Of a DNA stretch of 64,000 nt, positions 47,580-62,058 are shown piece by piece. The notes under the pieces were generated by a model, which was not told the origin of the DNA, did not search any database, and was given only the letters and a program-made list of their open reading frames with translations. Source of the DNA: Nostoc sp. TCL240-02 (GTDB lineage Bacteria > Cyanobacteriota > Cyanobacteriia > Cyanobacteriales > Nostocaceae); assembly GCF_013343235.1 (NCBI RefSeq), contig NZ_CP040094.1, forward strand, positions 5,637,001 to 5,701,000, given 5' to 3'. A program made the position numbers and the translations under genes. Position 1 is the stretch's first letter; each line of letters opens with the position of its first letter.

Positions 47580-50027
47580 ATGGTTCGAGAGCTAGAAAGA
47601 AAACGCCAGAGTGCAAAGTTTCCCGAAACAGCACCGGCTGCTAATCCCGTATTTTTTAGAACCTATAGCCGCCGAACAAAGGCGGGACTAAGGGAAACAT
47701 GGGATGAGGTATGCGATCGCACTCTCCTCGGCTTAGTCGAGTTGGGAAAGCTCACTCAAGAAGAAGCTGGCATACTGGATAAGATGCAGCGCAACTTGAA
47801 AGCTATGCCCAGTGGACGCTGGCTATGGGTTGGTGGTACAGACTGGATAACCAAACCAAAAAACTTTTCCGGCGCTTATAATTGCACCTCTACCAATCTC
47901 GAAGACTGGAGTGCTTTTGGATTAATGATGGATCTGGCAATGATGGGCTGTGGTACCGGAGCCGTCCTAGAACCACAATTTATTAACCAGTTGCCCCCTA
48001 TCCGTAATCAACTGAATGTCACTGTAAAAGGTGAAATTGGCAGCACTCCTGTACAACAGCGACGTGAATATACTGAAACTCATATAGAAGGCAATAACGT
48101 CACTATTCACGTTGGAGATAGCCGTGAAGGTTGGGTTGAATCATATCAAGCCCTATTAGAACTTTCTACTAATGAACAGTTTTCAGCAGCAGTCGAAGTA
48201 TTAGTTGATATCAGCGATGTCCGAAAAGCCGGAGAAACTCTCAACGGCTTTGGAGGAGTTGCTAATCCTGTGAAATTGCCCGGACTTTATCAGCGTTGTG
48301 CTTCCATCCTGAGTAAAGCTGTAGGACGGCAATTAAATTCAGTTGAATGCTGTCTGTTAATCGATCAAGCCGCCGTAACAATTGTTGCTGGTAATATCCG
48401 GCGCTGTCTGCCTGAAGATGCTTTAGTTCATACTTCCAAAGGTCTTGTTCCCATTTGCGATGTCCAAGTAGGCGATCTAGTACAAACTCCTTTAGGATTT
48501 CGGCGAGTTGTTGATAAATTCGACCAAGGATTTCAGGATGTCTATGAAATTGAAACGAATGCGACTTACCCAAGAGCAACTTTAAACCACAGACAAGCAG
48601 TTCTTGCAGATGCTCAAGGGAGAATTACCTGGAAGTCGATTGCAAGTTTAGTTGAAGGCGATCGCCTACTGCACAATACAAAAGTTCTACCTGGTACAGT
48701 TACCCATCTTCCCCCTGATTTTACTGAATCTCGACCCTCAAACAGTCGCACAGCTAAGTCTTTTGTAATTCCCGAATTAACAGCTGAGGTTGCTTGGCTA
48801 ATTGGGTTAACCCACGGTGACGGCTATATTGCTCTCGGTCGCAATAAGTATGATAAGCCCTATGGCCGGGTTGAATGGGCAATGAACAGCTTAGATACGG
48901 AATTCACGGCTAGAGTTCAAGCCAAAATAGATGCTGCTTTAGCTTTATTTGGATTGACTGCTACTCATGGCATCATCAAGGGCGAAAACACCGCCAAATC
49001 AATCTGCTCATCTATTCGACTAGCTGAGTACTTCCATCGCTATATCAAGCAACCTAATATTCCCCTAGCAATTCCTAGTTTTATTTTGCAGGGTTCAGTA
49101 GATATCAGGGCGGCTTACCTAGCTGGATTGATGGATAGTGATGGTGCTGTCAATAACCGACCCCCTCATTTAGTTACCTCAGTCTATCGGTCATTTATTA
49201 GACAAGTTAGTGCAGTTTTATCCAGTTTGGGTATTGCTGGCAGAATTAGCATTACCCATCCACAACAGCAAACATGGCAGGTTAAGTACAACCTAACAAT
49301 TCCAGCCCTCAAAGGGCGTTATAACGCCCTTATTGCACCTCACTCGCTTAAGGGAGAAGTACGCCAAGGCTTAAAAATGTATGGTTTCACCGTCCCTGGT
49401 GCAATTATGCGGGAAGCTTATACCTATAGCGAGATGCGAGATATGGGATTCCAAGGATCTCGTACTGTTGATGCCAATTATGAGCGCTATATCGTTGAAG
49501 CTGATATCTCGCTAGATATTCCAGTCACTGTGAAAGGACTGGGCAGTTACGATCATGTCCACACTTACGATATTGAAGTCGAAGAAGCCCATTGTTTCTA
49601 TTGTGATGGCTATCTAACACACAATAGTGCTGGCATGAGACAAGGTTCTAGCGAAGATAGTTTGTTTGTCGATGCCAAAGATAACTTATGGCAGCAAGAT
49701 GAAAGTGGCAATTGGCGAATCGATCCAGAGCGTGATGCACTCAGGATGGCAAACCATACCAGAGTTTTTCACCGCAAACCAACCTTAGAAGAATGTCTTG
49801 ATGCTGTTCGCAAACAGTATTATAGCGGCGAGGGAGCGATTCAATGGGCTGGTGAAGCCGTAGCGCGATCGAATATTGATTTGCTGCCAACACAAGCTCT
49901 AAAAGTTGAGTTTTTACAAGCTTATGAACAAGGAACAGCAAAACAGTGGTTAGAAGAGCGTTATTCAAATCTTGATGCTAATGAGCTAGAACATCGTTTG
50001 GCTCGTTATGGGCTAAATCCGTGTGGT
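47580..50027 (+). CDS. nrdJ: Adenosylcobalamin-dependent ribonucleoside-triphosphate reductase, exon 1 with intein
   Basis: This is a class II RNR of the monomeric RTPR type, which reduces ribonucleotides via an AdoCbl-derived thiyl radical. The host part reads FFRTYSRRTKAGLRETWDEV, GSGAYNCTSTN-type SGAYNCTSTNLEDW and MMGCGTGAV. The extein stops at GNIRR (residue 275), resumes at SAGMRQGSSEDS after a 407-residue intein, and runs to GLNPCG at 50027. Translation of the unspliced transcript would end two codons later (AAG TGA). The conserved NPCGE-I-GSNFHCNLSEV block continues only at 50365, so an intron must be removed. Spliced host protein is about 766 residues, normal for RTPR. Confidence 0.93.
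48405..49625 (+). other. Intein with LAGLIDADG homing endonuclease inside nrdJ
   Basis: Codons 276-682 encode a 407-residue intein. It begins with Cys (CLPEDALVHTSKGLVPICDV, block A), has a block B-like LNHRQAVLAD, and ends VHTYDIEVEEAHCFYCDGYL then THN, followed by Ser as the +1 nucleophile. Two dodecapeptide-type motifs, AWLIGLTHGDGYI and AYLAGLMDSDGAV, indicate a DOD homing endonuclease. The inserted site is the conserved NIRR/SAGMRQ junction. All splicing residues look intact. Confidence 0.95.
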
Positions 50028-50364
50028 AAGTGATTTTGCCTCACGTTAAAAACCTCGCAAAAACGGGGAAAGCTGAGATGCTAATCCCGTGGTAATCAAA
50101 GGAATTAAAAAGTCTTTGACACCGTACAGCGTAGAGAGTGAAACTAGATGACATCAGAAATTTTTGTCTAGAATATAATCTCTCCAAGAGTGCGGGGGTG
50201 GATGTGAAAAACACTTGTGTTGAGCGGCTTGCCCTGAGCGTAGCCGAAGGGCGCCGAAACACTTTTATTATCTAAAGTCACATCTGCAAAAGGTACGCGG
50301 AGCTACTGCAAATAATCAAGCAGTAGAACTAGGGGATAAAAAGCCTCTAGGGTAACAAACAAAG
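50028..50364 (+). ncRNA. 337-nt self-splicing intron in nrdJ, probably group I
   Basis: The protein frame is broken exactly between NPCG (ending 50027) and EIIGSNFHCN (from 50365). The upstream exon ends in U and the intron ends in G (50364), as in group I introns. GAGAG at 50134-50138 can pair with CTCTC at 50180-50184 (P7-like), enclosing a CTAGA...TCTAG hairpin (P8-like). It encodes no protein, and its small size fits group I rather than group II. A dispersed repeat (50217-50262) sits in the 3' part, probably in a peripheral loop. Confidence 0.78.
50217..50262. repeat. Dispersed repeat inside the nrdJ intron
   Basis: TGTTGAGCGGCTTGCCCTGA, then GCGTAGCCGAAGGGCGCCG, is a Nostoc-type dispersed repeat. 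The flanks AAAACACTTGT and CGAAACACTTTT suggest insertion in a loop of the intron RNA. Confidence 0.6.
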
Positions 50365-55663: not shown

Positions 55664-55887
55664 ATAATATTGCATAAATACGGGATGATTTTATTGAATT
55701 TTCCTTTGCGTTTCATCTCTAGATTCAGCAACGCCCATTAAATAAAGCTGGAATTGTTTCTACTTTTATCGCATTTATACGTATAGAAACGCTGAGAATT
55801 GCGTCTGAATGCGTATATTTGCGTTTTTTTATTGAAGAGAACTTGGCAAGCAGGAAAAATGGGAGTAGATTTGCTGAAATTCTTTGA
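55664..55887. other. Intergenic region before tandem repeats
   Basis: No gene is seen. TTTATACGTATAGAAACG-type sequence and a T run near 55830 could contribute to termination, but no convincing hairpin is present. Confidence 0.35.
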
Positions 55888-56112
55888 CAAAAGCTGGTTT
55901 TGGAGTTGCAAAAGCTAGTTTTGAAGTCGCAAAAGCTGGTTTTGAAGTCGCAAAAGTTAGTTTTGAAGTCGCAAAAGCTGGTTTTGGAGTCACAAAAGCT
56001 GGTTTTGAAGTCGCAAAAGCTGGTTTTGGAGTCGCAAAAGCTGGTTTTGGAGTCGCAAAAGCTAGTTTTGGAGTCAGAAACTTAGTTTACAAGTCGCAAA
56101 ACTTGATTTTTG
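55888..56112. repeat. 21-bp tandem repeat array (9 good units + 2 degenerate)
   Basis: CAAAAGCTGGTTTTGGAGTCG-type units start every 21 bases from 55888 (55909, 55930, 55951 and so on to 56056). They vary only at CTGG/CTAG and GGAG/GAAG positions, and two decayed units follow. The period is a multiple of three, so two frames stay open (AKAGFEV or QKLVLKS heptapeptides). The possible start is TTG with no SD, so I treat it as non-coding. Confidence 0.88.
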
Positions 56113-56367
56113 TAGCTAGGGCGAAGGGTGATATTTTATCTACAAGCGTGGGGAATGTGGAGACTTGAGAAAAAGTGCGATCGCATTAGTGCATTAATAT
56201 TCTATGTAGTTTGGATGTAATATTCCTATCTAGTCTAAAACTGGGTAGGAATTTTTACGTTGAAAAAAGTGGGATTATTACTTAAGTTAACTATTACAAT
56301 TAACTGTTTTTGAGTCTAAAATGCTACAGTATTTTTTATGCCTAACTTCATCAAGTAATAACTCTTA
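56113..56367. other. Region between tandem array and IS5
   Basis: No gene is seen. The original promoter of the ABC-3C operon may lie at the right end (AT-rich, about 56270-56365), now separated from the genes by IS5. Confidence 0.35.
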
Positions 56368-57293
56368 GAGCTGATTCGTAAAGAAAATCTAAAGAAAACT
56401 GAATCCGGTTTTGTTCAGGTTATAGGCTAAGTCGAGTGTAATTTATGTTGTAGTCGATGAGCCGTCTACCTGCGATTGAAAATCCACAGCGTAAACCCTA
56501 CCCAAGTGATTTAAGCGATGCCGAATGGTTAATTATCAAGCCCTTTCTACCAAAACCTAAAGGGTTTGGGCATCCTGTAGAAGTAGATTTACGAGAAATT
56601 TTGAATGCTATTTTCTATGTGCAACGTACCGGGTGTCAGTGGGAAATGCTACCCCATGATCTTCCACCTTACACAACAGTATACGGCTACTTTCAGAAAT
56701 GGCAGCGCAAAGGAATATGGCAGAAAATTCACGACCAAGTGCGCCATCAACTGCGACAAGATTTGGGCAGAGACGAACACTCTAGCGTTGCGATCGCCGA
56801 TTCTCAGTCAGTGAAGACAACGGAAAAAAAGGGGAAGTCTACGGTTTCGATGGTGGTAAGAAAGTTAAAGGCCGTAAGCGACATATAGTTGTGGATTCTC
56901 AAGGTTTGTTGATTGGCGTTTTAGTGACTGAAGCTAATGCGTCGGAACGTTTGGGGGCTGTGGTTGTACTCCATGAATCGGCTCAGGAATTGTCTAAATT
57001 GGAAGTTGTTTGGGTAGATCAAGGCTATTCTGGTGAAAACTTTGCTCAAGCTGTCAAGCAAGTTTGCGGAGAACAGGTTCGTGTTGAGGTGATTGAGAGA
57101 ATATCGAAAACATTTGAACGATTACCCAAGCGGTGGATTGTGGAAAGGACATTCGGCTGGCTCAATCGATTTCGGCGTTTGAGCAAGGATTATGAGTTGT
57201 ACACAGAGATCAGTGAAGCCATGATTTACGGCTCATTGATTCGTCTGATGGTAAAACGAATGGCAGCTTAATCTTTTGTTTACGAATCAGCTC
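56368..57293. mobile_element. IS5 family (IS1031-like group) insertion sequence
   Basis: This 926-bp element has inverted ends GAGCTGATTCGTAAA (56368) and TTTACGAATCAGCTC (to 57293). TTA on each side (56365-56367, 57294-57296) is a 3-bp TNA-type target duplication. The right end lies only seven bases before the first possible codon of the ABC-3C operon. Confidence 0.9.
56457..57271 (+). CDS. IS5 family transposase, two frames joined by a probable -1 frameshift
   Basis: Frame one (56457-56888) reads YPSDLSDAEWLIIKPFLPKP and holds the first Asp in VAIADSQSVKTTEK. Frame two carries GEVYGFDGGKKVKGRKRHIV, VVWVDQGYSGENF (second Asp) and RWIVERTFGWLNRFRRLSKD (Glu). The switch is at A AAA AAG (56825-56831) followed by GGG, a textbook -1 slippery site. 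Shifting there yields one complete DDE transposase of about 270 residues. Element ends and target duplication are intact, so it may be active. Confidence 0.85.
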
Positions 57294-57300
57294 TTAGACA

Positions 57301-58014
57301 GTGATGCCTTCAAACTTCGACTTGAGACTCCAACATTTAGAAGACAACATTAAACAAGACCAGGCTTTACTCAAAGACTATGAAGATTCATTGCGGTATG
57401 AAGATGAGCCACGTCGCAAGGCTAAGTACAGACGAGAAATTGACCAATTGCGCGAATCTGCTAATCGTTATCAGAAGGAATATGATGAATTGCGAATGCA
57501 GATAACTGGTGAATCAAATGTACAAATGCAGAATGTAGCTATCGAGTTGCAACAAATGAACACCAGATTAGATAGATTATATGCTGGGCAGAAGGCTATA
57601 TTTGAAAACATTAATCACTTACGTCAAGGACTATTAGCTCGTTATAACGCTGGTGAACAGAACATAATTTTAGCCATAACCGAACAATTAAATCAAGCTC
57701 AAATGGTTATGATTTCTACTGTTTTAGATGCAATAGAAACCGACCAGGTAACAGAGCAAGAAATGCAGCTTATTTTACAAGGAATACAGCAAAATATAAC
57801 TAAACTGCAACAAAATGGGACTGCTTTGTCTGCCAGTCAAGCAGCCTTAGCGGAAGTTATCAATGCCCCTGGATTAGATTTCAAACATAGATTGAAGGTT
57901 GGTATACCTCTTATTCCTTTTATTTTGGACTATGAAGGTGAATTAGAACTAGGAACAGGAATAAACCTTAAAGGTGCTTGGCAAGCCTTGGTGCTGCGAT
58001 TCAGAGGAGAATAG
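57301..58014 (+). CDS. ABC-3C-associated coiled-coil protein (putative effector/sensor)
   Basis: This 237-residue first gene of a four-gene operon has an N-terminal coiled coil (about 5-70) with DEPRRKAKYRREIDQLRESA. A long helical middle follows (QQMNTRLDRLYAGQKAIFEN). The C-terminal segment FKHRLKVGIPLIPFILDYEG then GINLKGAWQALVLRFRG has a short hydrophobic stretch, IPLIPFIL. The N-terminal coil is similar to that of the next protein. No catalytic motif is seen, so it may act through assembly or membrane contact, which is inference. The start is GTG 57301 or ATG 57304, just after IS5, with no good SD. Stop is four bases before the next start. Confidence 0.72.
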   Translation: MMPSNFDLRLQHLEDNIKQDQALLKDYEDSLRYEDEPRRKAKYRREIDQLRESANRYQKEYDELRMQITGESNVQMQNVAIELQQMNTRLDRLYAGQKAIFENINHLRQGLLARYNAGEQNIILAITEQLNQAQMVMISTVLDAIETDQVTEQEMQLILQGIQQNITKLQQNGTALSASQAALAEVINAPGLDFKHRLKVGIPLIPFILDYEGELELGTGINLKGAWQALVLRFRGE

Positions 58015-58017
58015 AAA

Positions 58018-58650
58018 GTGAATATGCACCAGCAAAGAAAAAATGACATAGAAAAACACATAAATGAGGAATTAATACTACAAAAGGAATTAGAAGACGA
58101 TTTACGCCTTGCTCAAGAGTCACAACAGAAAACCAAATTTAAAAAGCAAATTAAGGAAGTAAAAGCAAGAATTTCTGAATATAAAACTGAGCTAGATTCC
58201 TTGTCTAACCATCCACAAAAACAAGAATCTCTCGTTAGTGCAATGACAACTCTGACATTCAGGGAATTAGATATGGTAACGCAGGGAATTCTTTGTATGC
58301 CTATATCGGCTGAAGTTAACTATACTGTTCTTCCTCCAGTACCAAAAATGTTGAAAAATGAACTAACTGGGGTTGCTCAATCCAGACTTATGACAGGGGT
58401 AATTCAAGCTAGGATGGTTGGTAACTTTGTTGAGAATATGGTTAACATAATCCCTGATTTTCCAGAGAGACTAAAAGCAGGGTTTGTAAAGGAATATCAA
58501 AGACTCCAGGCAACCGGATTAAAAGGAAATGCTTTATTGGATGCTTTGCATGAGTTTTCTTGCAATAGTAGTTCAGACTATGATCTACAAGCAGCTGGTT
58601 TAGCTGTGCTGTACTATCTCTTTGAGAAGTGCGAGGTGTTCGAGCGATGA
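58018..58650 (+). CDS. ABC-3C adapter/effector component with coiled coil and C-terminal interaction domain
   Basis: This 210-residue protein has an N-terminal coiled coil (about 8-65: EDDLRLAQESQQKTKFKKQI) paralogous to the upstream protein. The C-terminal domain (about 145-210) contains RLKAGFVKEYQRLQATGLKG, and ends LQAAGLAVLYYLFEKCEVFE. That ending matches the general pattern of ABC-three-component effector C-terminal domains, which dock to the middle component. GTG at 58018 has GGAG eight bases upstream. The TGA stop overlaps the next ATG (ATGA at 58647). Confidence 0.75.
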   Translation: MNMHQQRKNDIEKHINEELILQKELEDDLRLAQESQQKTKFKKQIKEVKARISEYKTELDSLSNHPQKQESLVSAMTTLTFRELDMVTQGILCMPISAEVNYTVLPPVPKMLKNELTGVAQSRLMTGVIQARMVGNFVENMVNIIPDFPERLKAGFVKEYQRLQATGLKGNALLDALHEFSCNSSSDYDLQAAGLAVLYYLFEKCEVFER

Positions 58651-58871
58651 TTCTTCCTACAAAACATATTTCTACCAGTCACTCTCTATTGGGGGTAGGT
58701 GCTACAATACTAGAACAATTGTACCAACCAAGAACAGTTTCATCACTTTGGAGTGCTGTTGCTACTATGCCAGAAGTTGCCACATTTGAACGTTTTGTTT
58801 TAACTCTTGATCTCCTATACGCTATAGGAGCAATTGAGATGAATGCAGGATTACTTCATAGGTGTCACTGA
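58647..58871 (+). CDS. ABC-three component system middle component (MC6-like)
   Basis: This 74-residue protein reads MILPTKHISTSHSLLGVGAT, has SLWSAV in the middle, and continues FERFVLTLDLLYAIGAIEMN. It is a compact winged-helix-like fold characteristic of the MC6 middle components of ABC-3C systems. Such proteins bridge the effector and the ABC ATPase. ATG 58647 overlaps the previous stop, and its TGA overlaps the next ATG (TGATG at 58869-58873). A GTG six codons upstream also lies in frame but is less likely. Confidence 0.85.
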   Translation: MILPTKHISTSHSLLGVGATILEQLYQPRTVSSLWSAVATMPEVATFERFVLTLDLLYAIGAIEMNAGLLHRCH

Positions 58872-60622
58872 TGATTCATGCTGTTCGTTGTAATCGTGCA
58901 TCATTCAAAACGGTAGAGTTTAGACCTGGCTTTAACGTAGTTTTAGCAGATCGCACAGAAGACTCTGGCAGAAGAGATTCTCGTAATGGATTGGGTAAAT
59001 CTACTCTCATTGAAATAATTCACTTTTGTCTTGGAGGCACTATTCCAACTGCCAAAGGGCTTGGTTCTAGAACTCTTCGTGGTTGGGCTTTTAGTTTAGA
59101 GCTTACACTTGCAAATCAAATTATCACTGTTACAAGAAATACTGACGATAGGTCTCAGGTAGTAATTGATGGAAATACTGCTAACTGGCCTATTCAGCCA
59201 AGAGAACAAGAAGATCAAAAAGTTCTCAGTTTGGAAGACTGGAAGACTGTTTTGGGAAATCTAACATTTGGATTAAGCATTGATAATGAAGCTAAGAAAT
59301 ATAAACCTACTTTTAGAGGACTAATTTCTTATTTTATCCGTCGTGGAAGAGACGCATTTTCTACACCATTCGAGCATCATCCAAAGCAACCTGGATGGGA
59401 TAAGCAAGTTAATAATGCTTTTTTATTAGGTCTTGCTTGGGAAGAGGCAAGAAACCTACAACTTTTAAAGGATAAACAAAAATTAATAGCAGATATTAAA
59501 AAACTTAAAAAAGATACAGAAGCTGGAGTTGCAATTGGAATTTTTGGTTCTCTAGGAGAATTGGAAGCTTTAAAAGTGCAGATAGAAGCACAACTACGTG
59601 AAAGAAAAGAAACTCTTAACAATTTTCGGGTAGCCCCCCAATATCATGAATTAGAAGCAACGGTTAACCGTTTAACCTCACAAATTCACGAAGCAACGAA
59701 TAAAAATATTATTGAACAGAAATTACTAGAGTTTTATCAGTCCAGTCTTGACTCAGAGGATGAACCAAGACCGGAAGACGTTGTTCGTATCTATGAAAAT
59801 GCTGGTATTGAATTACCAGGTTTAGTAATTAGAAGACTGGAAGAAGTAGAAACATTTCATAGCCGACTTATACAGAATCGTCGGGATTTTCTAGCAAGTG
59901 AAATTAAACGTCTTAGGAGGGAAATAGGTTCTAGAAAAAGTTTTATTAGGGAAAAAACCGAAGATCGTGCTGAACTTTTGGAAGTCTTAAAGACGCATGG
60001 GGCTTTAGAAGAATACACAATGCTACAAGAAATTTATCTTGACAATGTAGCTCATCTTAATGAGATTAATAAACGCATCGAAGAATTAAAACAATTTGAG
60101 GAGGAAAAAAGTACCTTAAAAATTGAAAAAGAACAGTTACTACAACGCGCACGCCGCGACTATGGAGAACGAAATGAGCAAGCAGAACGTGCTATTAATT
60201 TATTCAGTATTAACTCTCGATTCCTTTACGACGTTCCAGGAACACTTGTTATTGATGTAGGAAGCAATGGTTTTAGTTTTCGAGTAGAAATTAGACGTGA
60301 TGGTAGTGAAGGGATCGATAAGATGAAGATATTCTGTTATGACTTAATGTTGGCGCAACTTTGGTCAGAGCGTGATCCCTCACCACGTATATTAATTCAT
60401 GACAGCACAATTTTTGATGGTGTAGATGAGAGACAGGTATCCCTTGCTCTACAATTAGCTGATAGAGAGTCAAGAAGGCTTGGCTTTCAGTATATCTGTA
60501 CATTGAATTCAGATATGGTTCCAAGTTCAGAGTTCCCACTTGATTTTAATTTTGATTCTTTTGTGAGACTAAGACTTACAGATGAGAATGAGGAGGGAGG
60601 ATTACTAGGCATTAGTTTTTAG
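58871..60622 (+). CDS. DUF2326-type ABC/SMC-like ATPase of ABC-3C system
   Basis: This 583-residue ATPase has Walker A RNGLGKST (about 38-45) followed by LIEIIHFCLGG, a long central coiled coil (about 205-465) as in Rad50/SMC proteins, and a C-terminal half. That half has KMKIFCYDLMLAQLWSERDP and Walker B-like RILIHDSTIFDGVDERQ near residue 505. Such ATPases probably sense or clamp nucleoprotein and trigger the partner effector. ATG 58871 is coupled to the MC6 gene by TGATG. A GTG nine bases upstream is also in frame. It is the last gene of the unit. Confidence 0.9.
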   Translation: MIHAVRCNRASFKTVEFRPGFNVVLADRTEDSGRRDSRNGLGKSTLIEIIHFCLGGTIPTAKGLGSRTLRGWAFSLELTLANQIITVTRNTDDRSQVVIDGNTANWPIQPREQEDQKVLSLEDWKTVLGNLTFGLSIDNEAKKYKPTFRGLISYFIRRGRDAFSTPFEHHPKQPGWDKQVNNAFLLGLAWEEARNLQLLKDKQKLIADIKKLKKDTEAGVAIGIFGSLGELEALKVQIEAQLRERKETLNNFRVAPQYHELEATVNRLTSQIHEATNKNIIEQKLLEFYQSSLDSEDEPRPEDVVRIYENAGIELPGLVIRRLEEVETFHSRLIQNRRDFLASEIKRLRREIGSRKSFIREKTEDRAELLEVLKTHGALEEYTMLQEIYLDNVAHLNEINKRIEELKQFEEEKSTLKIEKEQLLQRARRDYGERNEQAERAINLFSINSRFLYDVPGTLVIDVGSNGFSFRVEIRRDGSEGIDKMKIFCYDLMLAQLWSERDPSPRILIHDSTIFDGVDERQVSLALQLADRESRRLGFQYICTLNSDMVPSSEFPLDFNFDSFVRLRLTDENEEGGLLGISF

Positions 60623-60681: not shown

Positions 60682-61041
60682 ATGACTGACACTCAAAAGA
60701 TGGTTCGCTTAAACTTAGATTTGTCACCTGAACTAAATCAGATATTAGACGAACTAGCAAATAAAATAGGCACAAGTAAAGGTGATGTTCTGCGTCAGGC
60801 TATAATGTTAATGCAAATCATGGTTATAGCTAAAGAGGAAACCAAAAAATTAGGAGTCCCAGAAGCAAATCAATTGATAGTGAATGAAATCATCCTCTCA
60901 TCTGAGCCGCAGCCAAAACCGCATCCACTAGACACATTTATGGAAAGGCTTGGCCCTTGGGAAGATGAACGTACTGCGGAGGAAATAGTGAAAGATATTT
61001 ATGATAGCCGGACTATTTCTAACAATGACATTAGTCTATGA
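60682..61041 (+). CDS. VapB-like ribbon-helix-helix antitoxin
   Basis: This 119-residue protein has an N-terminal ribbon-helix-helix DNA-binding domain (MVRLNLDLSPELNQILDELA, GTSKGDVLRQAI) and a C-terminal toxin-binding tail (GPWEDERTAEEIVKDIYDSR). It should repress its own operon and inhibit the adjacent VapC. AAGGA lies about nine bases before ATG 60682. Its stop overlaps the toxin start by four bases (ATGA). Confidence 0.85.
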   Translation: MTDTQKMVRLNLDLSPELNQILDELANKIGTSKGDVLRQAIMLMQIMVIAKEETKKLGVPEANQLIVNEIILSSEPQPKPHPLDTFMERLGPWEDERTAEEIVKDIYDSRTISNNDISL

Positions 61042-61439
61042 CTTATTTACTTGATACAGATACTTGTATTTATTGGATTAAAGATATTAATTCAGTCAGA
61101 ACTAAAGTTAGAGAAATAGGATGGGAGCAAGTTTATATTTGTAGCATCACAGTTGCTGAGTTATATTTTGGTGCTTATAATTCTCAACGAGTAGTGGAAA
61201 ATTTAGCTCGTGCAGAAGACTTTATTCAAAACTTACCCGTCGTACCTTTAACGGATTCTGCTCTCAAAAAGTATGGTGAATTAAAGGCAGAACTCCGTAG
61301 AATAGGACAAACAATTGCCGAATTTGATTTACTAATTGCTAGTGTTGCACTTGCAGAAAATTACACTTTAGTCACAAACAATACTCGTCACTACGAACGC
61401 ATCAATGAATTAAAATTGGAAAACTGGACTCTGCCTTAA
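61038..61439 (+). CDS. vapC: VapC-type PIN domain ribonuclease toxin
   Basis: This 133-residue PIN nuclease has LLDTDTCIYW (Asp6), TVAELYFG (Glu41), AEFDLLIASVAL (Asp97) and LVTNNTRHYERI, the usual acidic metal-binding set. It would cleave tRNA or rRNA when the antitoxin is lost. The ATG overlaps the antitoxin stop. It directly follows the ABC-3C operon in the same direction, as in a defence-type cluster. Confidence 0.9.
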   Translation: MTYLLDTDTCIYWIKDINSVRTKVREIGWEQVYICSITVAELYFGAYNSQRVVENLARAEDFIQNLPVVPLTDSALKKYGELKAELRRIGQTIAEFDLLIASVALAENYTLVTNNTRHYERINELKLENWTLP

Positions 61440-61467: not shown

Positions 61468-62058
61468 ATGACTTCACCAACCCTAGATAAAATCATCAGC
61501 TTTCAAGAACAGAGATTTCTTTTACCTGGACATTACACTTGGGAAGAATTTGAGGAACTTGAAGCCTTAACAGCAGATGCACCAGGTTTGCGGATATCTT
61601 ATCTTGATGGGTGTGTGGAATTTATGACTCTTGGTGAACAACATGAGATGCTAAAAAAAGTAATCGCTATATTGCTGGAAGCTTACTTTTTTGACAAAGG
61701 TATAAATTTTATCCCTGTAGGTAGTGCTACTCGTCGCGCGAAAGAAAAGGGAGCTTCCTTTGAACCTGATGAATCTTATTATATAGGGCAGAAAAAAGAA
61801 AATCCTGATTTAGCAATTGAAGTAAATATTACTAATGTCAGTATAGATAAATTAGAAAAGTACAAGCGGTTTCAAATTACTGAAGTCTGGTTTTGGGAAA
61901 ATAATCAGTTATCTGTATATCACCTCAATAATGATAACTATGAGCTAATTACTGAAAGTCAATTACTACCAGAACTAGATATAAGTTTGTTAAGAAATTG
62001 CGTTTTAATGCCTTCAATAATTGAAGCAAGGACAGAGTTTATCAAAGAAATTCGATAG
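61468..62058 (+). CDS. Uma2 family (DUF820) putative endonuclease
   Basis: This 196-residue PD-(D/E)XK-like protein is typical of the very numerous cyanobacterial Uma2 family. It has YTWEEFEELEALTADAPGLR, then FEPDESYYIG, PDLAIEVNI (D...ExN in place of ExK) and VWFWENNQLSVY. Its biological role is unknown and activity is only predicted. ATG at 61468. Confidence 0.88.
   Translation: MTSPTLDKIISFQEQRFLLPGHYTWEEFEELEALTADAPGLRISYLDGCVEFMTLGEQHEMLKKVIAILLEAYFFDKGINFIPVGSATRRAKEKGASFEPDESYYIGQKKENPDLAIEVNITNVSIDKLEKYKRFQITEVWFWENNQLSVYHLNNDNYELITESQLLPELDISLLRNCVLMPSIIEARTEFIKEIR

Follow-up and report, generated by a model that had tools for sequence, protein, structure and literature searches.

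How does a bacterial conflict system act when the enzyme that should deliver its blow is not recognisable? This question is raised by a four-gene operon of Nostoc sp. TCL240-02, which we studied within a window of 64,000 nucleotides (the whole stretch analysed, positions 5,637,001 to 5,701,000 of contig NZ_CP040094.1; the source genome is this single contig of 7,887,247 bases). The operon encodes two helical proteins, here called G1 and G2, a small middle component, MC6, and an SMC-like ABC ATPase. A sequence-only reading had taken it for an ABC-three-component (ABC-3C) conflict system with two paralogous coiled-coil partners, neither of them carrying a visible nuclease, protease or toxin. ABC-3C systems were reportedly described by Krishnan et al. 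2020. We consider it probable, at roughly 70%, that the operon is an ABC-3C core of the PADLOC type PDC-M68 whose unplugged effector is recruited in trans through homotypic tags.

Results

The ABC-3C core

Based on profile searches, the core of the operon was assigned at the family level. With Pfam the ATPase matched PF10088 (DUF2326; E 6e-42, 143.1 bits against a cut-off of 28.7) and AAA_23 (1.9e-6), and MC6 matched PF20293 above cut-off (2.9e-19), bearing out what had been proposed for both proteins. The PADLOC profile PDC-M68B covered residues 1-583 of the ATPase with 682.8 bits (9.8e-206) and PDC-M68A covered the C-terminal part of G2 (Table 1). The two profiles match neighbouring genes, as expected of PDC-M68. 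ABC-3C membership is upheld. The ATPase motifs GLGKST and HDS, which we take to be Walker A and Walker B, are intact, and HDS sits at the expected place. The gene junctions were as first read, with a 3-base gap between G1 and G2, an ATGA overlap between G2 and MC6 and a TGATG overlap between MC6 and the ATPase gene. This order is not due to chance, because it recurs in other genomes.

An SMC-like ABC ATPase with DUF2326 and a small middle component are thus both present, as in ABC-3C systems. An effector domain fused to the C-terminal domain (CTD) was not found in G2, which has a hairpin where its nearest relatives have an HNH nuclease, and we therefore describe the operon as an ABC-3C variant with its effector in trans. 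Neither G1 nor G2 matched a catalytic family over cut-off in Pfam or NCBIfam, and in PADLOC they gave nothing catalytic beyond PDC-M68A and weak SMC-type matches, in agreement with the sequence-only reading. The Pfam model CTD10 matched G2 under its cut-off (14.7 bits against 28.1), relatives of G2 exceeded it (29.2 bits in L123, 35 bits in L095), and P0184 carries a precomputed PF20275 annotation. The same model also matched residues 291-387 of the ATPase over cut-off (39.5 bits), which may mean that the ATPase and the CTD protein have a segment in common or that the model is a mixed one. Among solved structures no relative of the ATPase was found (best E 0.079) and G1 had only weak matches to helical chains (best E 0.01). 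The alignment of G2 matched one solved HNH endonuclease (E 8.8e-4) over profile positions 3-67; in this part the alignment mixes tag-type with HNH-type rows.

A hairpin shared by G1 and G2

The proposed paralogy of the two coiled-coil proteins holds for their N termini and fails for their C-terminal halves, which are different domains. A helical hairpin of about 65 residues, here called tag 1, is the only part common to both. By BLASTP G1 and G2 are 20% identical (E 0.001). The local score of the two tags is 92, a value reached by 0 of 2000 heptad-preserving shuffles (maximum 68), and separate AlphaFold2 (AF2) models predicted a hairpin at the start of each protein, at G1 residues 5-69 and G2 residues 3-63. 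In G1 the predicted hairpin is followed by a long helix and a C-terminal bundle, the whole being helical.

The tag also recurs on neighbours of G1. Matches to the N-terminal part of the G1 profile were counted when they started at or before profile position 12, ended at or before position 104 and were not pieces of G1. With at most seven candidates scored per genome this gave 19 matches in 388 genomes of the order, 16 of them in the gene directly 3' of G1 (exceptions: G437, G495 and G617). The gap between G1 and its partner was 3 bases in 12 of 21 loci, FGE, TIR and GUN4 loci among them. In the host genome the tag-1 profile matched G1 and G2 only (E<=1, 38 candidates scored). Cognate-pair specificity within tag 1 was tested in 21 loci and was not found.

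Tag 1 in place of the HNH nuclease

Of 154 relatives of G2, 120 were listed. Among the matches listed, the nearer relatives are about 210 residues long and share the hairpin N terminus, and the farther ones, mostly about 250 residues long, can be aligned only over about their last two thirds. All six long-form relatives that were scanned matched HNH_2, three over the cut-off (P0198, P0215, P0231) and three under it (P0202, P0209, P0238), and in the alignment of G2 relatives the hairpin falls at the place of the HNH region. A crude HNH pattern was seen in 29 of the 47 long-form matches and in none of the 73 matches of the tag type; this pattern overlooks some true cases, such as P0198, and the 47 include one cut cyanobacterial protein (P0195).

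Additionally, every component was read in 56 loci around relatives of the ATPase. Thirty-five loci were assigned to the HNH side, including the atypical L052 and L053 as well as L023, which was listed by a frame beside its HNH reading. G1 was found in 0 of the 32 that have at least 900 bases upstream (L020, L029 and L036, with fewer, were excluded). The tag side comprises 11 loci, namely eight of the 56 together with the operon in this window, G074 (L090) and G577 (L123); L009, L013 and L049, partial or cut by a contig end, and the broken copies L011 and L057 had been left out before counting. G1 lies directly upstream of G2 in 10 of these 11 loci, and the eleventh, in Rhizonema, has a caspase instead. 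The sequence-only reading had proposed a search for the four-gene neighbourhood across genomes and had named the absence of the first two genes from homologous loci as a finding that would speak against it. The order does recur, and such an absence is seen for the first gene on the HNH side but not in the cyanobacterial branch.

In the ATPase tree (49 rows, midpoint root) the 11 tag-type loci and three cyanobacterial rows of unknown type form one branch (100/99). The adjoining branch, from Magnetococcales and UBP8, holds four HNH-type rows and one of unknown type (94/95, under the star level). L095, found in a 2-Mb genome of the same phylum, is of the long form and matches HNH weakly (PF01844, 19.5 bits against a cut-off of 21.4), and one plasmid relative with a 45% identical ATPase has an annotated HNH endonuclease.

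Two further observations concern these loci. The Pseudomonas plasmid NZ_CP102430.1 carries two copies of the HNH-type system (L033, L034). L124 (the same as L011) and L057 are decayed operons, in which a piece of G1 lies near the ATPase gene or its pieces without a recognisable G2 or MC6 between them.

A caspase with a matching tag in Rhizonema

In the metagenome-assembled genome (MAG) of Rhizonema sp. PD37 (L006; G642 of the order set was treated as the same record), a caspase gene (PF00656, 5.6e-22) ends 16 bases upstream of G2. The Rhizonema G2 has another N-terminal tag, in one open frame with the same CTD10-type body. The tail of the caspase scored 95 against this adjacent tag, which 0 of 2000 shuffles reached (maximum 58), as compared to 44 against the G2 tag of the window (30/2000) and 24 against the G1 tag (1223/2000).

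A profile built from the caspase tail and the Rhizonema G2 tag matched 8 of the order's 388 genomes; in two of the eight the match was weaker than E 0.001. The caspase is 73-75% identical to five others (L179-L183). In L180-L183 a caspase with this tail adjoins a protein that starts with the same tag, followed in each case by a 330-residue AAA gene (one scanned, AAA_5, 1.4e-10; 'MoxR-type' is the label given here), and the two same-tagged neighbours that were scanned are iSTAND proteins (4.8e-14 and 1.8e-14). Within the stretch fetched around L179 no same-tagged neighbour was found. Read from the sequence, the Rhizonema arrangement is an exchange of the kind described as effector-associated domain (EAD) coupling in the available part of Kaur et al. 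2020 (PMC7159879), here with an ABC-3C core.

The G1 family and its partners

G1 had no Pfam domain match, the named EAD and TRADD-N families included. At E<=1e-3 we found 160 relatives, of which 120 were listed. Among the matches listed, those with an organism name are cyanobacterial except for one Obscuribacterales MAG, and the closest named relatives of the operon proteins come from Nostoc and its kin. The family is marked by a C-terminal signature (Table 1), and a shorter family, A7 (10 rows), has the same tail (profile-profile 96.9%, E 1.9e-10). Short relatives of about 160-175 residues with this tail (L091-L094, L132-L137) adjoin NB-ARC-TPR, GUN4, FGE and other proteins; these neighbours often bear another tag (KFEL..QIEEC), and the short relatives that were scanned matched no Pfam family over cut-off.

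Searches with the G1 profile covered 388 genomes of the order plus 386 of the phylum, with at most seven candidates scored per genome, and gave matches at E<=1e-3 in 45 of the former and 13 of the latter. At the 20 strong places in the order (E<=1e-40) the partners were seven ABC-3C systems, one broken ABC-3C system (G625), four FGE, two TIR, three GUN4 and one NACHT protein (three FGE and two GUN4 partners were scanned, L087 was assigned to FGE by eye and L121 to GUN4 by eye on a cut contig). One further place is a C-terminal G1 part fused in frame to an AAA_21 ABC ATPase (G602) and one is partnerless. G1 is thus, by its gene neighbourhoods, not tied to ABC-3C. In two metagenomic proteins G1 is joined to a receiver domain and to DUF4062. 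The plasmid records gave four G1 matches, all cyanobacterial, of which one was read: on a Tolypothrix plasmid an AAA_21 ATPase gene is followed by G1, and behind G1 come a TPR protein that, by eye, begins with the same tag and a vWA protein. In the G1 tree (21 rows) the sequences group by partner and the ABC-3C-linked G1s stand in two places, and partner exchange, in either direction, is therefore likely. Profile searches of the host genome for the wider G1 family or a second G1 tail found no further member.

It had been suggested that the effector acts through the hydrophobic IPLIPFIL segment of G1. This segment belongs to the most conserved stretch of the protein, but we found no transmembrane segment and nothing that shows toxicity. 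A pore-forming or membrane-anchored G1 is not supported, as the maximum of the 19-residue Kyte-Doolittle window is 0.92 and lies elsewhere in G1. A phage-borne G1 was rejected, as none of 79 pattern matches in IMG/VR was a relative.

Distribution of the system

With at most three candidates scored per genome, PDC-M68B was found in 10 of the 388 genomes of the order, one remote and one broken locus included, in 3 of the 386 of the phylum and in 3 of the 13 same-genus genomes listed. The remote ATPase (G569, 147 bits) has another kind of first gene (L147) and was not counted among the tag-type loci. Relatives were present on 46 of 72,556 plasmid records and in four IMG/VR contigs. Patchy occurrence and plasmid carriage fit a conflict system.

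Layout of the locus, upstream insertion and neighbouring genes

The features of the operon and its upstream region are given in Table 1. In the protein database G1 has the shorter of the two forms listed there.

Table 1. Features of the operon and of the region directly upstream (positions in the window)
Feature	Position	Strand	Details
Ancestral upstream region	56220..56367	+	By eye, resembles what lies immediately 5' of G1 in Nostoc sp. JL34 (L003)
Insertion sequence (IS), IS4/5 type	56368..57293	+	926 bp; ends set by eye from inverted repeats; DUF4096, DDE_Tnp_1
IS transposase, two frames	56457-56888 and 56891-57271	+	Within the IS
G1	57304..58014	+	236 residues from ATG at 57304; GTG at 57301 gives 237; predicted all-helical, AF2 pLDDT 80.7
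Tag 1 in G1	57313..57507	+	Residues 5-69 (237-residue numbering); predicted two-helix hairpin, common to G2
C-terminal signature of the G1 family, KHRLKVGIPLIPFILDYEGELEL	57883..57951	+	K195, P203, P206, Y211, E212 and E216 invariant in 43 rows
G2	58018..58650	+	210 residues; tag 1 fused to a CTD10-like ABC-3C domain (PDC-M68A); AF2 pLDDT 87.7
Tag 1 in G2	58024..58206	+	Residues 3-63; stands where the nearest non-cyanobacterial relatives have their HNH region
CTD10-like part of G2	58219..58644	+	Residues 68-209; PDC-M68A 121.1 bits, 1.8e-35
MC6 middle component	58647..58871	+	74 residues; PF20293, 69.3 bits against a cut-off of 27.2
ATPase, SMC-like ABC with DUF2326 (PDC-M68B)	58871..60622	+	583 residues
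GLGKST, presumed Walker A	58988..59005	+	K43 kept in 44/45 ATPases
HDS, Walker-B-like	60398..60406	+	Each residue kept in 44/45 ATPases

An IS, flanked by TTA at 56365-56367 and 57294-57296, now separates the ancestral upstream region from G1. It is one of 11 near-identical full-length copies in the genome and the insertion therefore looks recent. Truncation of G1 by the IS was rejected, since 10 bases separate the end of the insertion from the ATG and the alignment of G1 with its relatives is full-length. Between 56100 and 61100 we found 12 promoter-like sites, with 12.3 expected from shuffles. G1 is intact but native expression of the operon in this strain is uncertain.

Directly 3' of the ATPase gene lies a toxin-antitoxin-like pair of RHH and PIN genes (60682-61436). 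Both are also found behind the ATPase gene in Mojavia (L009), and in Atlanticothrix (L012) a related RHH gene stands there with another downstream gene. A Uma2-type putative endonuclease (61468-62058) beside the operon is a PADLOC single-gene candidate (PDC-S17, 1.1e-76). Apart from it, the PADLOC scan of ten neighbour proteins gave one match only, as a homing endonuclease. A ribonucleotide-reductase-like gene at 47580-50033 contains a LAGLIDADG homing-endonuclease segment, perhaps an intein, and repeats that read in one frame as VAKAGFE-like heptads lie at 55884-56085, between a phosphoketolase-like gene and the IS.

Discussion

We propose that the SMC-like ATPase together with MC6 would sense a DNA state related to invaders and that the CTD10-like domain would hold G2 on this core, by analogy with the way effectors would be held until activation in Lamassu/DdmABC. 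In DdmABC/Lamassu, according to the part of the review PMC12409362 available, activation frees the effector LmuA, which forms a tetramer and becomes active as a nuclease. Activation of the Nostoc core may similarly free or cluster G2, and since G2 has no recognisable enzyme of its own, it would in this state draw in, through contact between tags, the protein with the same tag: G1 in Nostoc, the caspase in Rhizonema. G1 would then give the output. In the simplest form it would be an executioner activated by proximity, perhaps like caspases, which oligomerisation switches on, as stated for animal systems in the accessible text of PMC7159879. In Rhizonema the same core would have been re-plugged by exchange of the tag and would gather the caspase.

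The operon resembles the known ABC-3C systems, as far as the consulted parts of PMC10586767 and PMC12409362 describe them, in its DUF2326 ABC ATPase, MC6, presumed CTD10-type protein, gene order (CTD protein, middle component, ATPase) and overlapping junctions. It differs from them in the tag, which stands on the CTD10-like protein in place of a recognisable effector domain, and in the same-tagged fourth gene. Both PDC-M68 profiles match the operon, but PDC-M68A is longer (253 positions, of which G2 covers only 108-251), and neither profile matched G1. The operon was also judged a candidate for an uncharacterised defence system, and this judgement stands: PDC-M68 is a PADLOC candidate whose name a full-text literature search found in 0 papers. 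By title or the start of the abstract no published description of this arrangement was found, the founding ABC-3C paper (Krishnan et al. 2020) lying outside the reach of that search.

Lamassu and DdmABC resemble the operon in having an SMC-like ATPase, a small middle protein and a CTD-bearing effector, as well as in the proposed scheme of activation followed by release (PMC12409362, in part). However, the LmuB profiles reached 46 bits at best on the ATPase, far lower than PDC-M68B. LmuA matched neither G1 nor G2 at E<=1, so the pair of LmuB and LmuA profiles is not found here, and no Cap4 or other nuclease domain was found in them with PADLOC, Pfam or NCBIfam.

A close parallel to the tags is offered by the EAD-coupled conflict systems of multicellular bacteria, cyanobacteria among them. 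Judging from the portions of Kaur et al. 2020 (PMC7159879) and 2021 (PMC8195603) at hand, these have small helical domains duplicated on adjacent genes and exchanged among TIR, FGS, GUN4, caspase and STAND-type partners. Likewise, the operon has one small helical domain on adjacent genes, and the repertoire around it, FGE, TIR, GUN4, NACHT and caspase, is exchangeable. In contrast, the term 'ABC ATPase' has 0 occurrences in the main texts of these two papers. The iSTAND-MoxR ternary systems come close to the Rhizonema locus, whose caspase and tag resemble the pairs in four other genomes (iSTAND profile tested in two), but at this locus the tag is carried by an ABC-3C protein of the CTD10 type and not by iSTAND.

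Several findings weigh against recruitment of an effector in trans by tags. Tag 1 matched no Pfam EAD or Death-like Pfam family, which also sets it apart from the EAD-coupled systems; the only EAD match, EAD9 (E 0.024, under cut-off), lay in an NB-ARC protein that is partner to a distant relative. Fold searches with G1 and G2 gave no match at E<=0.001. Coiled coils are alike by composition, and the own partner had the best tag score in just 2 of the 21 loci, among them the caspase locus of Rhizonema. Pairing specificity is therefore not apparent from the sequences, and tag 1 behaves as one common family. The evidence for the caspase exchange comes from one locus on a MAG contig. In plasmid relatives with 33-37% identical ATPases the N-terminal 170 residues of the CTD10 protein had no Pfam match at E<=0.01 (three scanned), and HNH is thus the state of the nearest relatives and not of ABC-3C/MC6 systems at large. 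G1 has an internal stop in two FGE loci, and in G617 a same-tagged FGE-like protein (by eye) stands without G1. Finally, the partners of G1 include likely sensors (NACHT, ABC-3C) as well as a likely effector (TIR), and such a mix suits an adaptor no less than an executioner.

The last point leads to the strongest competitor, to which we give somewhat less than an even chance: G1 may not be the output but a scaffold connecting the ABC-3C core with further effectors or with a partner elsewhere in the cell. G1 adjoins a TIR protein, itself probably an effector, in two genomes, two metagenomic fusions join it with a receiver domain and with DUF4062, and the short relatives stand beside NB-ARC, GUN4 and FGE proteins. 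In the host genome, however, no third tag-1 protein was found and the wider G1 family had no further member, and the slot of G1 is held in Rhizonema by a caspase, a likely effector. A role of G1 as a regulator that keeps G2 or its partner silent, and is neither effector nor adaptor, seems unlikely to us. It would agree with G1 being a separate gene before its partner and with the FGE-type proteins that persist beside an interrupted G1 or without one, but in Rhizonema its position is filled by a caspase, and a degraded G1 beside an intact partner would do harm if G1 were its only restraint. SMC-like complexes serve repair, and the SMC-like ATPase with DUF2326 might by this token belong to a housekeeping complex for DNA repair or chromosome maintenance. 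We regard this as very improbable given the patchy occurrence in order, phylum and genus, the relatives on plasmids and in IMG/VR contigs and the exchange of effector domains. That G1 is a passenger, alike to G2 through generic coiled-coil composition only, is the least credible explanation, for despite the low BLASTP similarity and the own partners that do not outscore foreign ones, the tag score stands clear of heptad-preserving shuffles, 16 of the 19 profile matches lie directly behind G1, the 3-base gap recurs with FGE, TIR and GUN4 partners and the predicted hairpins occupy the same place in both proteins.

Returning to the ABC-3C core with an effector recruited by tags, a wider picture may be drawn, which we offer tentatively and hold to be rather less than evenly likely. 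ABC-3C/Lamassu-type SMC cores may serve multicellular cyanobacteria as plug-in sensors of a Death-domain-like network in which effectors are shared. A fused nuclease would have been lost once and a homotypic tag taken in its place, leaving a core that could be re-plugged, through exchange of tags, to a caspase or G1. G1 would then be a new class of proximity-activated executioner common to several types of sensor.

The operon would link SMC-like ABC-3C/Lamassu defence with the EAD-coupled, apoptosis-like systems of filamentous bacteria, two subjects treated apart in the literature as far as it was accessible. G1 represents a family that has no Pfam domain and is found repeatedly next to TIR, FGE, GUN4, NACHT and ABC ATPase proteins. 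With a fused HNH, with G1 in trans and with a caspase in trans, one conserved sensor core offers a natural domain-swap series, so that the passing of a signal to very different effectors becomes directly testable, and one sensing machine may use interchangeable weapons.

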